Shown piece by piece: positions 1-47,100 of a DNA stretch of 64,000 bases. Position numbers and translations under genes: made by a program. The stretch is from positions 3,720,001 to 3,784,000 of the forward strand of contig CP091064.1 in assembly GCA_021907015.1 (NCBI GenBank), written 5' to 3'. Position 1 is the stretch's first letter. Every line of letters begins with the position of its first letter. The notes below the pieces were generated by a model. It ran no database searches and was not told the origin of the DNA. It saw only the letters and a program-made list of their open reading frames with translations. The DNA is from Pectobacterium sp. PL152. Its GTDB lineage: Bacteria > Pseudomonadota > Gammaproteobacteria > Enterobacterales > Enterobacteriaceae.

Positions 1-469
1 CGTTCCGCTGGTGAACAGCAAGCGGCGCGAACAATTTGAGCAGATTAAAAGCAGTGTGGCCCCCGATTTGCGCGTGCATCTGCTGGATGGACAGGCGCGG
101 GAAGCCATGATTGCCAGTGATGCGGCGCTATTGGCATCCGGTACGGCGGCGCTGGAGTGTATGCTGGCAAAATGCCCGATGGTGGTGGGTTATCGCATGA
201 AACCCTTTACCTTCTGGTTGGCACAGCGTCTGGTCAAAACACAGTGGGTGTCGCTGCCGAATTTGCTGGCTGGACGCGAACTGGTGACGGAATTGCTTCA
301 GACCGACTGTACACCTGACAAGCTGGCCGCCGCGCTATTGCCGCTGTTCGCAGATTCGGATAAAACGGCTGCGCTGCGTACGACATTTGTGGATTTGCAT
401 CAGCAGATTCGCTGTAACGCTGATGAGCAAGCGGCTCAGGCGGTACTGGAATTAGTCAAGCCGCGTTAA
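1..469 (+). CDS. lpxB: Lipid-A-disaccharide synthase, C-terminal part (5' end outside window)
   Basis: LpxB is a peripheral inner-membrane glycosyltransferase. It joins UDP-2,3-diacylglucosamine and lipid X to form the lipid A disaccharide. Only about the last 155 residues of a roughly 380-residue protein are present, and the frame is open to the left edge (codons from base 2). The stretch [20 protein letters not shown] matches the conserved sugar-nucleotide-binding region of enterobacterial LpxB, and the length from there to the stop fits the family. It is followed after 35 nt by rnhB, as in other enterobacteria (lpxA-lpxB-rnhB-dnaE-accA). The in-frame GTG at base 11 is an internal codon and not a start. 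Confidence 0.95.
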
Positions 470-1185: not shown

Positions 1186-4100
1186 ATGGCCGAACCACGT
1201 TTTGTTCACCTGCGTGTTCACAGTGACTATTCCATGATCGATGGGCTGGCTAAAGTCGGTCCGCTGGTAAAAAAGGCGGCGGCACTTGGCATGCCAGCGC
1301 TGGCGATTACCGATTTCACCAACCTGTGTGGGCTGGTTAAGTTCTATGGCGGCGCGCATGGCGCAGGCATCAAGCCGATTATCGGCGCAGACTTCTGTGT
1401 CGAAAGCGACGAATTAGGGGATGAACTCGCGCATCTCACTGTCCTCGCTATGAATAATGAAGGCTACCAGAATCTCACGCTGCTGATTTCTCAGGCTTAT
1501 CAGCGGGGTTATGGTGCTGCCGGGCCGACAATTGACCGAGATTGGCTGATTGAGCATCGTGAAGGACTGATTTTACTGTCTGGCGGTCGTCGGGGTGATG
1601 TCGGCCAGTTTTTGCTACGCGGTAACCAGACGCAGGCCGAGCAGTGTCTGGCGTTTTATCAGGAACACTTCCCCCAGCGTTACTATCTGGAACTTATCCG
1701 CACGTCACGCCCCGACGAAGAAAGTTATTTGCACGCTGCCGTCGAGTTGGCAACGAAGCACGGGTTGCCTGTGGTGGCGACCAACGAAGTGTGTTTTATC
1801 AGCACTGATGATTTTGACGCTCACGAAATCCGCGTGGCTATCCACGATGGCTACACGCTTGATGACCCTAAACGCCCACGTAATTACAGCCCGCAGCAGT
1901 ACATGCGTTCCGAAGAGGAAATGTGCGAGCTCTTTGCGGATATCCCCGAAGCACTGGCGAACAGCGTTGAAATTGCCAAGCGTTGTAACGTAACGATTCG
2001 TCTGGGTGAATATTTCCTGCCGCAGTTCCCGACGGGCGACATGACCACGGAAGACTTTCTGGTTGAGTGCTCGAAAAAGGGGCTGGAAGAGCGCCTCGAA
2101 TTCCTGTTCCCTGACCCGGAAGTGCGGGCTGCGCGGCGACCAGAGTACGATGAGCGTCTGGATATTGAACTGGGCGTGATTAACCAGATGGGGTTCCCCG
2201 GTTACTTCCTCATCGTAATGGAATTTATTCAATGGTCGAAGGATAACGACGTGCCTGTTGGGCCGGGGCGTGGTTCCGGTGCCGGCTCGCTAGTGGCCTA
2301 TGCGCTGAAAATCACCGATCTGGACCCGCTGGAATTCGACCTGCTGTTCGAACGTTTCCTTAACCCTGAACGTGTTTCCATGCCTGACTTCGACGTCGAT
2401 TTCTGTATGGAAAAACGCGATAAAGTTATCGATCACGTTGCGGAAATGTACGGACGTGATGCGGTATCACAGATTATTACCTTCGGTACGATGGCGGCGA
2501 AAGCGGTTATTCGTGACGTAGGGCGCGTGCTTGGGCACCCGTATGGGTTTGTCGATCGTATTTCAAAACTGGTGCCGCCCGATCCGGGTATGACGCTTGA
2601 AAAAGCCTTTGCTGCTGAACCGCAGCTGCCGGAAATTTATGAAGCCGATGAGGAAGTTAAGGCCCTCATTGATATGGCGCGTAAGCTCGAAGGGGTAACG
2701 CGTAACGCCGGTAAACATGCGGGTGGGGTGGTGATTTCCCCCACCAAGATTACCGATTTCGCGCCGTTGTATTGCGATGCGGAAGGGAACCACCCGGTTA
2801 CCCAGTTTGATAAGAACGACGTGGAATATGCCGGGCTGGTGAAGTTCGACTTCCTTGGCCTGCGTACGCTAACCATCATCGACTGGGCGCTGGGGATGAT
2901 TAACGCCCGCCGCGCGAAGCAGGGGCAGGAACCGATTGATATCGCTGCGATCCCGCTCGATGACAAGAAAAGTTTCGACATGCTGCAACGTTCGGAAACC
3001 ACCGCGGTATTCCAGCTTGAATCGCGCGGCATGAAAGACCTGATCAAGCGTCTGAAACCTGACTGCTTTGAAGATATGATCGCACTAGTGGCGCTGTTCC
3101 GCCCCGGCCCGCTGCAATCCGGCATGGTGGATAACTTCATCGACCGTAAACATGGCCGTGAAGCGATCTCTTATCCTGATATCGAATGGCAGCACGAGTC
3201 ACTCAAGCCCGTGCTGGAGCCGACCTACGGTATTATCCTGTATCAGGAACAGGTCATGCAGATCGCTCAGGTACTGGCAGGCTATACGCTGGGCGGTGCG
3301 GACATGCTGCGTCGTGCGATGGGGAAAAAGAACCCAGTCGAAATGGCGAAGCAACGTGGTGGCTTCGAAGATGGTGCCAAATCTCGCGGTGTGAACGGCG
3401 AACTGGCGGTTAAAATTTTCGACCTGGTGGAAAAATTCGCCGGTTACGGCTTTAATAAATCTCACTCAGCGGCTTATGCACTGGTGTCTTACCAGACGCT
3501 GTGGCTGAAAGCGCACTATCCGGCTGAATTCATGGCGGCGGTAATGACGGCCGATATGGACAACACGGATAAAGTGGTCGGGCTGGTTGATGAATGCTGG
3601 CGGATGGGGTTAAAAATCCTGCCTCCTGACATCAACAGTGGGCTGTATCACTTTCACGTTAACGACGATGGCGAGATTGTTTACGGCATCGGCGCAATTA
3701 AAGGCGTGGGTGAAGGCCCGATTGAGGCGATTATCGAGGCGCGTAATCAGGGCGGTTATTTTAGAGAGCTGTTTGATCTTTGCGCGCGTACCGACATTAA
3801 AAAGCTGAACCGCCGTGTGTTGGAAAAGCTGATTATGTCCGGGGCATTTGACCGCCTGGGGCCGCACCGCGCCGCGTTAATGAATTCATTGGCTGATGCG
3901 TTGAAGGCCGCCGATCAGCACGCGAAAGCGGAAGCCATTGGTCAGGTGGATATGTTCGGCGTGCTGGCCGAGGCACCCGAGCAGGTTGAGCAATCCTACA
4001 GCACCGTGCCGCCGTGGCCGGAGCAGGTCGTATTGGATGGTGAGCGGGAAACGCTGGGGCTGTACCTGACCGGCCACCCGATCACGCAATATATTAAGGA

Positions 4101-25800: not shown

Positions 25801-26886
25801 ATGCGTCATTTGGTTCGTTTTCTCCCTCTGCTTGTTTTGCTCTCGGCTTGTAGCAGTCAGCCGGCTCCTCCTCCCGCAGAAGCACCTTCAGGTAATCCTT
25901 TTAAAGGCGGTTTCCTGCTTGAACCTGCACACAATGTCCATCCGTTAGGCGGCGATTTTGCGACCAACCCGGCGACCGCGCGGTTTGTCGATAAAATGGT
26001 GCTGGAACACGGCTTTAATCGCCAGCAACTGCATGATGTGCTGGTTCAGGCGAAAAGCCTGGATTGGGTAATCCGCCTGATGGATAAACAAGCCCCGACA
26101 TCGCGTCCGCCTTCAGGGCCGAACGGTGCCTGGAACCGCTACCGTAATCAGTTTATTACGCCAGACAACGTGCAGAACGGCGTGGCGTTCTGGAATCAAT
26201 ATCAGGATGCGTTACAGCGCGCCCAAAACATTTACGGTGTTCCGCCTGAGATCATCGTCGGCATTATTGGTGTCGAAACCCGCTGGGGCAGAGTGATGGG
26301 GAAAACGCGCATCATCGATGCGTTGGCAACGCTGGCGTTTGATTACCCGAGACGTGCTGATTACTTTGCGGGTGAGCTGGAAACGTTCCTGATGATGGCG
26401 CGTAAAGAAGGCAACGATCCGCTCAGCCTGCGTGGCTCTTACGCGGGGGCGATGGGCTACGGACAGTTTATGCCGTCATCCTTCAAGAATTACGCCGTGG
26501 ATTTCGACGGCAACGGGCATACCAACCTGTGGGATCCGGTGGATGCGATTGGTAGCGTAGCCAATTATTTCAAAGCGCACGGGTGGGTGAGGGGCGCTCC
26601 TGTGGCGGTGCAGGCAAATGGTCAGGCGCCGCTGCTGGCGAATGGTTTTAATACCCGTTACTCGCTTACTGAACTCCAGGCCGCGGGCTTAACGCCACAG
26701 CATTCGCTGGCGGGATACAGTGAAGCCAGCCTGCTGCGGCTGGATATCGGTACGGGTTACCAATACTGGTACGGCTTGCCCAACTTCTACACCATCACGC
26801 GCTACAACCACAGCACGCACTACGCGATGGCCGTATGGCAACTGGGTGAGGCCGTAGGCCGCGCGCGCCAAGGACAGAGTTACTAA
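25801..26886 (+). CDS. mltB: Membrane-bound lytic murein transglycosylase B
   Basis: MltB cleaves the MurNAc-GlcNAc bond of peptidoglycan with formation of 1,6-anhydromuramic acid. The lipoprotein signal ends at Cys17 (LLSAC). The catalytic glutamate is E159 in GIIGVETRWGRVMGK. Further family motifs are GAMGYGQFMPSS, DFDGNGHTNLWDPVDAIGSV (the EF-hand-like calcium site) and the ending RYNHSTHYAMAVWQLGEAVG. The 361-residue length equals that of E. coli MltB. The gene is intact. A large repeat begins about 80 nt downstream. Confidence 0.96.
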   Translation: MRHLVRFLPLLVLLSACSSQPAPPPAEAPSGNPFKGGFLLEPAHNVHPLGGDFATNPATARFVDKMVLEHGFNRQQLHDVLVQAKSLDWVIRLMDKQAPTSRPPSGPNGAWNRYRNQFITPDNVQNGVAFWNQYQDALQRAQNIYGVPPEIIVGIIGVETRWGRVMGKTRIIDALATLAFDYPRRADYFAGELETFLMMARKEGNDPLSLRGSYAGAMGYGQFMPSSFKNYAVDFDGNGHTNLWDPVDAIGSVANYFKAHGWVRGAPVAVQANGQAPLLANGFNTRYSLTELQAAGLTPQHSLAGYSEASLLRLDIGTGYQYWYGLPNFYTITRYNHSTHYAMAVWQLGEAVGRARQGQSY

Positions 26887-26966
26887 GATATCTGCTGTTT
26901 GGTGTTGGTAGCCCCATTCGCCGGGTCTGTCTCTTACATAATGCAGGGACATAAGTGGGGTTGGCC

Positions 26967-27326
26967 GTTATCCGGCATAAGAAATTATGCAGCGGTGAGC
27001 GTGACCGCCGAGTGAGCGGCATGGATGCCGCGAAAGCCAGTGCCGCGTCGGACAAAAACGTCATAGACGTTTTTGAACAGCACTTGTGCTGACCCGAAGG
27101 GCGAGCCCCATTTATGGGGCGAGTAAACGCGTCACTGGTGGCTCGATTAGCGGTCATGAACACCGATGGCATCGCGCAGCGACATAATTTAGCCGGAAGC
27201 CAGGGTTCGCAGGGCGGCGGCGGCTGAGCGCCCTGCGTCGGGCGCGTGCGACGAAGTAGCATGAGAATAGCGCTATTGTGGCGCACGAAACGGTCTCTGA
27301 GCCTGCATAAACATGTGACAGCGAGA
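26967..27326 (+). repeat. Dispersed ~360-nt hairpin-rich repeat, copy 1
   Basis: This block recurs in reverse orientation at 43726-44086. The best-conserved 120 nt (about 27012-27135) contain a row of hairpins: GCGGCAT/ATGCCGC, AAAACGTC/GACGTTTT, AGCAC/GTGCT and GCCCCAT/ATGGGGC. A further stem CGCAGGGC/GCCCTGCG lies at about 27210-27240, and GCGCACGAAACGG closes the similarity. Compared with copy 2, several stem bases differ in pairs that keep pairing. The repeat fills most of the 591-nt gap between mltB and the TauE/SafE gene. Its opposite strand is partly open as protein, but the frame is probably incidental. Confidence 0.8.
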
Positions 27327-27477
27327 GCCCTCGAGAATATCAATCCTCCCAATCCTCCCTCTACCTCCAATTTTCCCTGAATCATCCTCAATACAATCCG
27401 CATCGACACCAACAGCCGTCTCATTGGACTATTCACGCATAGGGATCTTCCTATGACGTTGCAAACTGAGGCGATGA

Positions 27478-43646: not shown

Positions 43647-43725
43647 CAATGACCCCTGTTTTCATCACTCTTTGTTTTAGTTCCTTTACACATATTTGTG
43701 CCGCTATCGAGGCAGTTTCGTACCG

Positions 43726-44086
43726 TCTCTTGGACACGTATCTATGCCGCTGCTGAGGCCGTTTCGTGCGCGATAATGGCGATTTTTTATGCTATCTCGT
43801 AGCGCGCGCCCGACTCGGGACGGCTCAAACGCCGCTCGCCCCGAGACCCCAGGCTTTTGGCGGAAATTATGCCGCTGGCGCGGTTCCTTCGTAGATATCA
43901 GGTTTAACGGACCGCTTGCGACACGTTTACTCGCCCCATAAATGGGGCTCGCCCTTCGGGCCAGCACAAGTGCTGTTCAAAAACGTCTCTGACGTTTTTG
44001 TCAGACGTGGCGCAAGCTTTCGCCGCGTCCATGCGGCTCATCCTAAACCTGCTATCTCCTCAGCATAATTTTTTACGCCGGATAAC
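43726..44086 (-). repeat. Dispersed ~360-nt hairpin-rich repeat, copy 2 (between bapA and bapB)
   Basis: This is the reverse-complement counterpart of 26967-27326. Read on the minus strand it starts GTTATCCGGC, passes GCCGCATGGACGCGGC, AAAACGTC/GACGTTTT, CAGCACTTGTGCTG and the CCCCATTTATGGGG hairpin, and ends near GCGCACGAAACGG. The left 120 nt match copy 1 at roughly nine bases in ten, and the right part is more diverged. It fills most of the 513 nt between the bapA stop and bapB start and would be transcribed with the operon if no terminator lies before it. No gene is evident in this gap. Confidence 0.8.
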
Positions 44087-44159
44087 GACAAAATCCGCGT
44101 TGATCTCCGCATTTGTGTATAAGCAGCGGCTCTTGGTAGAGCCAGCGCTTAAAACACCG

Positions 44160-47100
44160 TTACACCATATTGACGAGCAGGCCTTGCTGCACCAGTACAT
44201 CTCCCAGGTTGTTGGCGCTATCCAGCGATGAATGGTGGTAGACATCGAAGCGTTGGCCATCAATATCGCGCTGTCCTACCGTGCTCCAGATGCCTTCTCC
44301 CGGAATCAGGTTCACCCGATTTCCTTCGCCCCCGACGATCAGCAGATCATCTTCGGGTCGGTCGGTGACATTCAGGGCGCGGTCGAGATCCAGCGTGATA
44401 CTGTTGGTGCCGTTTTGACCTAAATCGAAGATCTCCACGTTATCGATTTTCAACCCCAACGCGGTGAGGTCCAGATTGAGCTCAGTGCCATCCAGAACCA
44501 GCGTATCAATGCCGTCACCACCGTCGATTTGGGTAAAGTCGAGTGTTGAAAGCGTAATAATGTCGTCGCCTTCTCCACCTTCGACATCCTCGCCCGTTTG
44601 CACACTGCCGTCGGCCAGATTGATAACGACGCCACCGATGGCATAAACGCTGTCTTCCACTTCGGTGCTGGCGCTATTGTTGATGGTGTTTGTCTCACTG
44701 AGCGTGGCTGCTGCCATTTTCGAGCTGACAGTAAGGGGCTGTACTTCGGCATTTTCTCCGGTGTCGAGCTGTTCGCTGGACAGTGAGGCCATCTGAACGA
44801 GACTGCTATCGTCAACATCCAGCGCCATCATGCTCATTAGCGGCAACCCGAGAGAGATACCGGAAGTTAATCCGGCGGAGACGCCGGTGAAGTTACCCGC
44901 CTGATCGGTGACGGAGGCTTCAACCGTTGTTCCCAGCAGCGCGGTCAACACTGCGGCGACGTTTAAGACGTTGATGCCTAAAATTGAGCTGGTGAACTGT
45001 GTGCTCCACTTGCCATCCGCACCGACGGTACCCTGTAGCGTCTGGCCGAGCAGCGTGACGGTCACCTTGGCACCTTGCTGCACGTAGCGTGATGTCCCGC
45101 TGACAGTGACGCCGTTTGCCAGTAGGCCAACGGTATTCCCCACCAGCGATCCCACCGCATCAATGCCCAACTGCGGCAACTGGTGCGTTTTGACGATCAC
45201 ATTGCTACTGGAGTTATTGGTGTTGCCGTAACGGTCAGTGACGGTGACACCGACAGTCAGGTTGCCATCAAGGATGCTGGTCAGATTGGCACTCGGTACC
45301 GTGACGCTCCAGGTGCCGTTGCTGGCGACCGTGGCGTTGAGCACGAGTCCGCCTATGGTCAACGTGATGCTACCGCCCGCTGCATTGGTTGTGGTTCCGC
45401 TGATGATCTGGTTTACGCCTGCTTCAGCCAGATTCAGGTAACCGTCTCCGCCAAAAAGAGAACCGAGGCTGACCGTTGGCAACGAGTGAACGCCCACGCC
45501 AATCGACGCTCCTGCGCTGGCGCTTTTCCCTGCCGCGTTGGTCAGCGTGGCGCTGAGAGAAAGCGTGCCGTCAGTCAGGCTGTTGAGATCGAGTGAAGGC
45601 AGGCTGACGGACCAGCTACCGTTGCTTTGCACCACGGCAGAGTAAGTCTTGGTGCCTAGTGAGATCTGGATTGTGGATCCTATCGCATTGGTACTGGTTC
45701 CGCTGATGACCTGACCTGCAGCAGCCTCGACGGCGTTGAGCAAACCGTCACCGCCAAAGAGCGGGTTGAGGGTCAGCGTTGGCTGGCCGTTAATCGCTAC
45801 GCTGATGTTACTGGCCTGCTGACCAACGTTACCCGCCGCATCCACCAGACGGACGCCAACGCTCGTGACGCCATCCGTGAGAGCCTTCAGGTCAAGATTA
45901 GGAACCGGCAAGCTCCAGCTACCGTTTGCGCCGACCGTTGTGGTGTAGGTTTTGCTGCCCAGCGTGACATTGATCGACGTACCCGCTGCCACATTGGTCG
46001 TCGTCCCGCTGATGGTTTGCGCGCTCAACAGGCTGGTGAGATCCAGTACGCCGTTGTTAAACAACGGGTTGAGCGTAATCGTCGGCGGTAATATAGCGAC
46101 GTTGAGGCCGGTGCTGACGCCGGTGCTATTGCCTGCCGGGTCGGTCACCGTCGCACTAATGGTGAGGTTACCGTTAGCCAGCCCGGACAGTTGCAGCGGC
46201 GTGACGCTGGTGCTCCAGGTGCCATCACTGCCGACCGTCGCGTTTAGCGTCAGGGTGCCGATGCGTATCACGACGGACGATCCCGCGACGGCGTTGGTGG
46301 TGGTGCCGCTAATCGTCTGTGTCAGCGCCGCTTCCGCGGCATTGAGGAAGCCATCGCCGCCAAACAGTGAACCCAAACTAATCGTCGGCAGATTTTTGGC
46401 AATAATATTGATGGCGTTGTTTACCGTGCCGGTATTGCCGGAGGTGTTCGTGACCGAGACATTCAAGGTGGTGCTGCCATCGGCCAATGCGCTGAGATCG
46501 GACGGCTGCAGCGTCAGGCTGAACGCGCCCCCGCCCCGACCGTAGACAGGAAGGTTTTACCGCCAAGGGTAACCGCAACCTGCGATCCGGCACTGGCATT
46601 GGTGACCACGCCACTGATCGTTTGCGCTACCAGCGCTTCTGCCGCGTTGATGAAGCCATCGCCGCCAAATACTGGGTTTAGCGTAATCACTGGCTGGGCA
46701 AAATCGAACTTGATGCCAGCACTGCCGTTGGCAGTATTGCCTACGCTGTCTGTCGCGGTAGCGGTCACGGTGAAATCACCGCTGCCTAGTCCTTGTAGAA
46801 TACCGAGTACGCTTGGGGTGACTGCGGCACTCCATTTACCATCTGTACCTACAGTAGCTGTAGCAATTTGTGAACCCGCAATGCTCAGCGTAATGGTTCC
46901 GCCTGCCAGACCCGTAGCCGTGCCGCTGAGGGTTTGATTGACCAGCAGATCGGCCAGATTGAGTACGCTATCGCCAAAGACCGGGTTCAGCGTAATGCTC
47001 GGCAGATTCTTGATGACCGTCGGGACGTTCACGATCTGGCTGGCGGTGTTGCCTGCGTAATCGGTGACCACAACGCCCAGCGCCAGCGTGCCATCTTGCA

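Follow-up and report, generated by a model that had tools for sequence, protein, structure and literature searches.

Results

Two copies of a hairpin-rich repeat follow genes in the window

The window, a 64,000-nt stretch of contig CP091064.1 from Pectobacterium sp. PL152, contains two copies of a hairpin-rich repeat. Copy 1 (approximately 26927..27329, plus strand) follows a gene ending at 26886 (plus strand). Copy 2 (approximately 43723..44126, minus strand) follows a gene ending at 44160 (minus strand). Both copies are in the sense orientation. An earlier note, made from the sequence of the window, had drawn the repeat as a block of 360 nt. The element proves to be longer, its ends being estimated from end-conservation across 72 copies; the left end of copy 1 reads CTGTCTCTTACATAATG and the right end falls within a terminal hairpin. 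When folded, each copy beat 100 of 100 shuffled sequences (z = −4.03 for copy 1 and −3.97 for copy 2).

The stems form a series. In copy 1, domain 1 (26972..27196, plus strand) is closed by the helix CCGGC...ATTATGC / CATAAT...GCCGG and holds nested stems with an insert at the tip. One of the stems, at 27016..27031 (plus strand), is the hairpin GCGGC-ATGGAT-GCCGC, with a loop GGA that is kept in 44 of 45 insert-free copies. The equivalent hairpin of copy 2 (44022..44037, minus strand) is GCCGC-ATGGAC-GCGGC; a single base pair has been swapped and compensated. Domain 1 is followed by a second hairpin, CGCAGGGCG/CGCCCTGCG (27208..27237, plus strand), in which 4 of 9 pairs have both-side changes. 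Here, CGCAGGG/CCCTGCG of copy 1 corresponds to CTCGGGG/TCCCGAG of copy 2, with changes of G-C to T-A and A-T to G-C, plus one G-C to G-T. Within the right domain, conservation is highest at GCGCACGAAAC (27281..27291, plus strand), which pairs with GTCGGGCGC of 27238 onward. The right-terminal hairpin, which contains the right end, spans 27291..27329 (plus strand). An extra partial copy of this hairpin, ACGAAACTGCCTCGATAGCGGCACAAATATGTGTAAAGGA, was read by eye beside copy 2 (43681..43722, minus strand). Thus, both copies and every stem named in the earlier note are present as it stated.

A probably younger module occupies the tip of domain 1

The repeat had also been taken as one unit. It is instead a host element plus an inserted module, and the AAAACGTC stem belongs to the latter. 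The module is a separate unit of 76 nt with four hairpins, located at a GGA loop at 27050..27125 in copy 1 (plus strand, 95.5 bits) and at 43928..44003 in copy 2 (minus strand, 98.6 bits). Insert-free copies have, at the tip of domain 1, the stem CGCGT-CGGGA-ACGCG; elsewhere the CGGGA apical loop holds the 76-nt unit. The CAAAAACGTC/GACGTTTTTG stem, with loop ATA or AGA, is also present as described. Its unchanged arms are no evidence for selection on pairing, the whole insert being near-identical between copies.

The mean pairwise identity of the insert is 0.958 (42 insert-bearing copies), whereas 20-column windows of the host give 0.58–0.86, averaging ~0.76. Since the identity of the insert is far above that of the host, the insert is probably the younger of the two in most copies. 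It is found in both host subtypes. The insert comes and goes, or passes between copies, possibly by insertion or possibly by recombination.

The element is dispersed and lies mainly downstream of genes

As the earlier note had proposed, genomes of the genus were searched with the 360-nt block, and 24 of 24 gave matches. In the source genome (closed, 5.02 Mb), BLAST with this query returned 53 matches. Query positions 1–85 and 160–353 are contiguous in many copies; positions 86–159 are found in six copies of the source genome, and related sequence occurs elsewhere alone. Without the insert, the host element is ~330 nt long. At the nucleotide level, the 360-nt block matched none of 16 genomes from other families, and a search of plasmids and phages in 'distant' mode found no match to the window copy. 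The right domain was also modelled on its own (covariance model R2, 95 positions), and 51 candidates per genome were scored. This gave at least 35 matches in the source genome and, in a search of the family with one genome per genus, matches in at least 14 of 79 genomes, some with 16–28 copies. Hence, the right domain, if not the whole element, appears to predate the genus. In genome G213, right-domain matches on contigs C56, C30 and C8 recur at intervals of ~210 nt, as tandem arrays of some shorter relative might produce.

Two orthologous sites were compared across 25 genomes of the genus. At the mltB site, 12 genomes have a forward insert-free copy, 4 a forward copy with insert, 6 an inverted copy (2 of them fragments) and 3 none. 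At the MarC-like site, the corresponding numbers are 9, 2, 7 (1 interrupted) and 7. Insert-bearing copies therefore make up 4 of 22 copies present at the first site and 2 of 18 at the second; these classes rest on an insert-detection pattern that misses variant inserts, such as the one at L004. Where an intergenic region lacks the element, a YPAL-like repeat is often present there instead (noted from L086, L103, L273, L274 and L277).

Gene context was assessed for 50 copies whose loci have long flanking sequence. Of these, 43 follow a gene and share its orientation. Convergent genes flank 23 copies, 20 lie between tandem genes and are co-oriented, 7 are anti-oriented and none lies between divergent genes; the gene calls are crude open reading frames and orthologous copies are counted separately.

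Conserved ends and possible mobility of the element

The ends common to the 72 copies are GCTGTTTCTTATACACAAAT on the left and GCTGTCTCTTAGTCACATTT on the right (in reverse, GCTGTCTCTTAGTCACATTTTTATGC), and would form imperfect inverted repeats. The consensus of these copies has similar ends of the form GCTGTYTCTTA..CACA; single copies are degenerate. Like a MITE, the element is short, non-coding and present in many dispersed copies (53 BLAST and at least 35 right-domain matches). Among 37 copies with recognisable ends, shared flanking words of 4–9 nt, as expected of a target-site duplication, were in no excess over shuffled flanks. We thus call the element MITE-like rather than a MITE. A clean empty site was found at neither of the two orthologous loci examined.

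The left end, TCTTATACACA, resembles the outside/mosaic end of Tn5. A link to IS50/Tn5 was rejected; the IS50-type transposase domain PF14706 was found in none of the 25 genus genomes, and no 9-bp duplication was seen among the 37 copies. A Y1 transposase (PF01797) is found in 8 of the 25, including the source genome with 5 matches. Three copies in the source genome (L022, L025 and L028) are interrupted at the same place by an IS110-family element of ~1.36 kb, encoding a 366-aa protein (PF02371, PF01548), immediately 3′ of the loop GGA in the GGA hairpin. In a copy at the MarC-like site (L285), another IS110-family element (PF02371) breaks the right-domain hairpin from ~1974.

Pairing and loop sequence are both conserved

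We collected 89 distinct full-length copies, 41 with an insert recognised by the same detection pattern and 48 without. Covariation was measured in 45 insert-free copies aligned with plain MAFFT, for which RNAalifold proposes 69 pairs. Changes on both sides that keep pairing occur in 31 of the 69. With this structure fixed, 97.9% of cells are paired, compared with 91.5% after shuffling, and there are 192 both-side cells, compared with 37.7. The covariation score is 0.239, against 0.115 for shuffled alignments and at most 0.071 with the partners slid. Three or more pair types are seen at several positions, among them 34-119 (AU, GU, GC, UG, CG), 175-205 (GC, AU, UA, CG) and 36-117 (GC, AU, UA). 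Many changes track the split into two subtypes. The number of independent changes is thus lower than the cell counts, given the relatedness of the copies and a single subtype that accounts for 8 of the 45 rows; gene conversion between copies may inflate these counts further.

The claim that selection acts on pairing is supported by the both-side changes and by a score above that of shuffled and slid controls. The further claim, that it does not act on sequence, is not supported. Conservation peaks at unpaired or mixed letters, and exceeds that of most stems in GCGCACGAAA and in the GGA of the two apical loops (45/45 and 44/45). Conserved loop letters together with covarying stems indicate that pairing and loop sequence are both kept.

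Pairing at the RNA level should tolerate G·U and reject A·C, which is G·U mirrored on the other strand. For the 45 host copies, the ratio of G·U to A·C is 100:12 unfiltered and 88:12, 54:12 and 18:6 with rising strictness, where 54:12 refers to pairs that are at least 75% Watson-Crick (p = 1.7e-7) and 18:6 to the 90% level. The set of 89 copies, with its own predicted structure, gives 148:142 at 60%, 102:76 at 75% (p = 0.06) and 39:18 at 90%. Modules of the source genome give 52:83 unfiltered, which runs against selection on RNA, then 49:45, 49:45 (75%) and 38:16 (90%). The G·U excess in the 45 copies thus favours RNA-level selection on the host; the ratios of the modules leave the module undecided. 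We read this as pointing to host pairing being kept at the RNA level, with the 89-copy set and the modules less clear or not in agreement. The sense position downstream of genes agrees with such a reading of the host.

These data bear on the possibility that the element is a neutral MITE, with a functionless transcript, in which pairing is kept only because transposition needs palindromic ends or hairpins as DNA. Multiple copies, flipped and absent copies, and halves that are mosaic between subtypes would all be expected, the IS110-family insertions in element hairpins suggest hairpin-forming DNA, and the G·U test of the module is ambiguous. Conversely, neutrality sits poorly with the sense bias, the absence of copies between divergent genes, the G·U excess in the 45-copy host set and the persistence of the element at both of the compared sites in most of the 25 species. 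Moreover, ~70 internal pairs go beyond the needs of ends. We therefore give neutrality a real but minority chance, and favour the view that the host element acts within transcripts.

The module occurs in other repeats and other genera

A covariance model of the module (R1) was built from eight seeds. Scoring 150 of 951 candidates in the source genome yielded at least 113 matches at E 0.05 or better, of which 6 are weaker than E 1e-3; the 113-row alignment holds one place twice and includes some weak reverse-strand rows. By simple patterns, 112 rows divide into 60 in ERIC, 21 with an A-run downstream, 9 in YPAL/RU-2-like repeats, 6 in the host element and 16 others. A second pattern set divides 111 rows into 59, 18, 9, 6 and 19, respectively. 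Many ERIC copies of the source genome carry one to three modules, and in the YPAL-like repeat of the genus the module sits in a GGA loop. The YPAL assignment is based on the RU-2 sequence in Table 1b of PMC2759123 and on a match to RF02770 at L085 (51.3 of 70 bits). In the alignment, A-run modules are often followed by a terminator-like hairpin.

Across 107 distinct rows from the source genome, 94.2% of cells are paired and 24 of 25 pairs have both-side changes. The values for 23 distinct rows from other genomes are 92.8% and 18 of 25; both sets of rows had been fitted to the model, a procedure biased towards pairing. Within the order, the module was found in at least 49 of 148 genomes and at least 23 of 65 sampled genera (E 1e-4, from 32 scored candidates in each genome). 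Searching with an exact pattern recovered it in 12 genera: Serratia, Sodalis, Budvicia, Limnobaculum, Kluyvera, Buttiauxella, Yersinia, Symbiopectobacterium, Pantoea, Hafnia, Citrobacter and Enterobacter.

Several arrangements were noted in passing. At L201 (~1501-1575, minus strand) and L206 (~161-235, plus strand), the module lies within a frame GACCTACT...AGTAGGTCACCGCCA that resembles the acceptor stem and 3′ end of a tRNA. Five loci (L148, L150, L153, L155 and L157) have tandem or partial tandem modules that end CATAAAAA, just upstream of terminator-like hairpins. In Yersinia (L300, L308, L317), Hafnia (L314) and Serratia (L319), copies of the module and of truncated relatives are interleaved with CCTGCGTTCAGG within another palindrome, which ends ATCCCGCACGACCCA.

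Paired GGA loops suggest a possible role for CsrA/RsmA

CsrA prefers GGA in a hairpin loop (hexaloop), has the SELEX consensus RUACARGGAUGU and can bridge sites 10–63 nt apart (PMC7652899). Insert-free copies of the host have two apical-loop GGAs within this range, in the tip loop (45/45) and the hairpin loop (44/45), ~25 nt apart. In insert-bearing copies, the tip loop is replaced. Modules in other families have GGA in loop 1 (22/23) and loop 4 (21/23), ~45 nt apart. According to Table 1b of PMC2759123, YPAL also has two GGA loops, GCGCCAAGGATGGCGC and TACATGGATGTA.

Hence, the repeats might be dispersed CsrA/RsmA-binding platforms; the host, the module and YPAL would each have two GGA-loop hairpins bridgeable by one CsrA dimer, and copies in 3′ UTRs would tether or titrate CsrA. 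The loops AGGGAT, AAGGAT and ATGGAT resemble the SELEX site. The loop GGAs are also frequent among A-run modules of the source genome (15/21 in loop 1 and 17/21 in loop 4) and invariant in those borne by YPAL (9/9 and 9/9). Over the whole source genome, they are retained in 45/107 and 37/107 modules. Against the platform reading, neither GGA is found in the window's own insert type (0/6 and 0/6) and most ERIC-borne modules lack them (present in 20/60 in loop 1 and 12/60 in loop 4). Rows from named genera (41 distinct) have 17 and 17, and the stems are longer than the short ones that SELEX favoured (PMC7652899). Loss of GGA from the window insert and from most ERIC-borne modules speaks against CsrA binding as a universal function. 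A CsrA/RsmA role is a serious candidate reading of these loops; as the account of all three repeats, we consider it unlikely.

The module may or may not move by itself

The module could move alone, in the manner of IS200/IS605- or REP-like single-strand elements, by inserting 3′ of (N)GA and duplicating no target. Letters ending GA do precede it at five kinds of site (the host loop, the YPAL loop and three ERIC positions), these letters are also present in insert-free copies, and there is no duplication. However, GA precedes CAAA in 82 of 111 rows from the source genome and so may be the module's own. Flanking DNA pairs around the module with a mean stem of 11.2 bp in the host and 7.3 bp in YPAL, compared with 4.9 for shuffled flanks of all module rows; the value for ERIC flanks, 5.5, is little above shuffled. 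The Y1 transposase domain PF01797 occurs in only 8 of 25 genus genomes, which speaks against such movement, although the source genome has 5 matches. Homologous recombination among hosts would explain the data too. Autonomous movement of the module is thus improbable on present counts.

Comparison with known repeats and RNA families

The window copy has no match in Rfam up to E 5, RF02770 and RF02902 included. Of 11 loci searched, 6 hold modules borne by ERIC or YPAL that match RF02902 (AaHKsRNA22, Aggregatibacter sRNA 22), every one below the gathering score of 39.8. These modules fit the full model and share its four-stem order and its ACAAA / GAAC / GCCC-GGGC / GAG signatures. However, the best, which is ERIC-borne, reaches 38.3 bits (E 7.7e-6) and so falls short of gathering, and the module of the window has no match to E 5. 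Matches to ZMP-ZTP, isrH and V_AS5 at other loci were taken as chance or partial. Hammerhead-like letters, GAUGA...GAAA, were considered, and a hammerhead reading was dropped.

Like YPAL/RU-2 (Yersinia palindromic element; RF02770, Ysr224), the host is an intergenic enterobacterial palindrome with two GGA hairpin loops. It has a different sequence, roughly double the length and several stems, and no sequence match between the two was found in the searches run. Identity with YPAL was rejected, as the window copy has no RF02770 match; a separate YPAL-like repeat (L085) scores 51.3 of 70 bits. The host also resembles ERIC (IRU, RU-1), a MITE-like, transcribed palindrome near genes. Length variants of ERIC have been reported. 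ERIC is described as 127 bp with a TA duplication (PMC2229807), whereas the host has different ends and no duplication was found among 37 copies. The ERIC sequence of Table 1a in PMC2759123 is absent from copy 1 on comparison by eye.

In the portion of the literature searched, we found no description of the host element, of module insertion into ERIC or YPAL, or of a link between CsrA and such repeats; ERIC insertions may be in print. The host thus appears to be a new MITE-like variant of enterobacterial palindromic repeats with a widespread module, and the module links several repeats that were not linked before in the literature covered. Relatives of its parts are Rfam sRNA families (RF02902 and RF02770), yet a stand-alone small RNA gene, riboswitch or ribozyme is very improbable given dozens of dispersed copies, the lack of an Rfam match for the window copy to E 5, an insert that is tolerated or absent and a ZMP-ZTP match at L005 far under gathering (27.7 compared with 39).

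Discussion

The earlier note had left a choice between a structured RNA and a palindromic mobile element. The repeat is best described as both; it is a dispersed palindrome that varies in presence and absence and lies mostly in sense downstream of genes. We favour a composite, non-autonomous mobile repeat acting as a structured piece of mRNA 3′ ends, that is, a MITE-like 3′-UTR element with a younger structured insert (probability about 0.6). In this model, a palindromic MITE-like element of ~330 nt would have spread over the genome and been kept mainly just 3′ of stop codons, in sense. Its transcript is predicted to form a multi-stem domain that is closed by a helix, followed by three hairpins: the second hairpin, that of the right domain and the terminal one. 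The 76-nt module (ACAAA-s1-UUUGAAC-s2-GCCC/GGGC-GAG-s4-GAGUA) would have entered the apical GGA loop later, arriving after the host; at one and the same orthologous site, some genomes have it and others do not. Modules of this type also sit in ERIC, in YPAL/RU-2 and beside terminators. The fold may be used as RNA for 3′-end protection or processing, possibly with a protein that binds GGA loops.

A broader proposal can be made more speculatively, and we think it quite improbable in full. The host, YPAL/RU-2 and the RF02902-like module would share a design of two GGA hairpins at a CsrA-bridging distance, and mobile repeats would have seeded putative CsrA/RsmA sites into many 3′ UTRs. The GGA loops would double as landing sites for modules and IS110-family elements, so that repeats grow by nesting.

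Repeats such as ERIC and YPAL are usually regarded as unrelated oddities. In a single genome, we now see a covarying, RNA-like module shared by at least three repeat families and also placed next to terminators. Should the fold act in 3′ UTRs, these repeats would constitute a widespread tier of post-transcriptional control that transposons have spread. Should the paired GGA loops bind CsrA, a single protein and a short RNA would suffice for a direct test of what the repeats do, a question of long standing.
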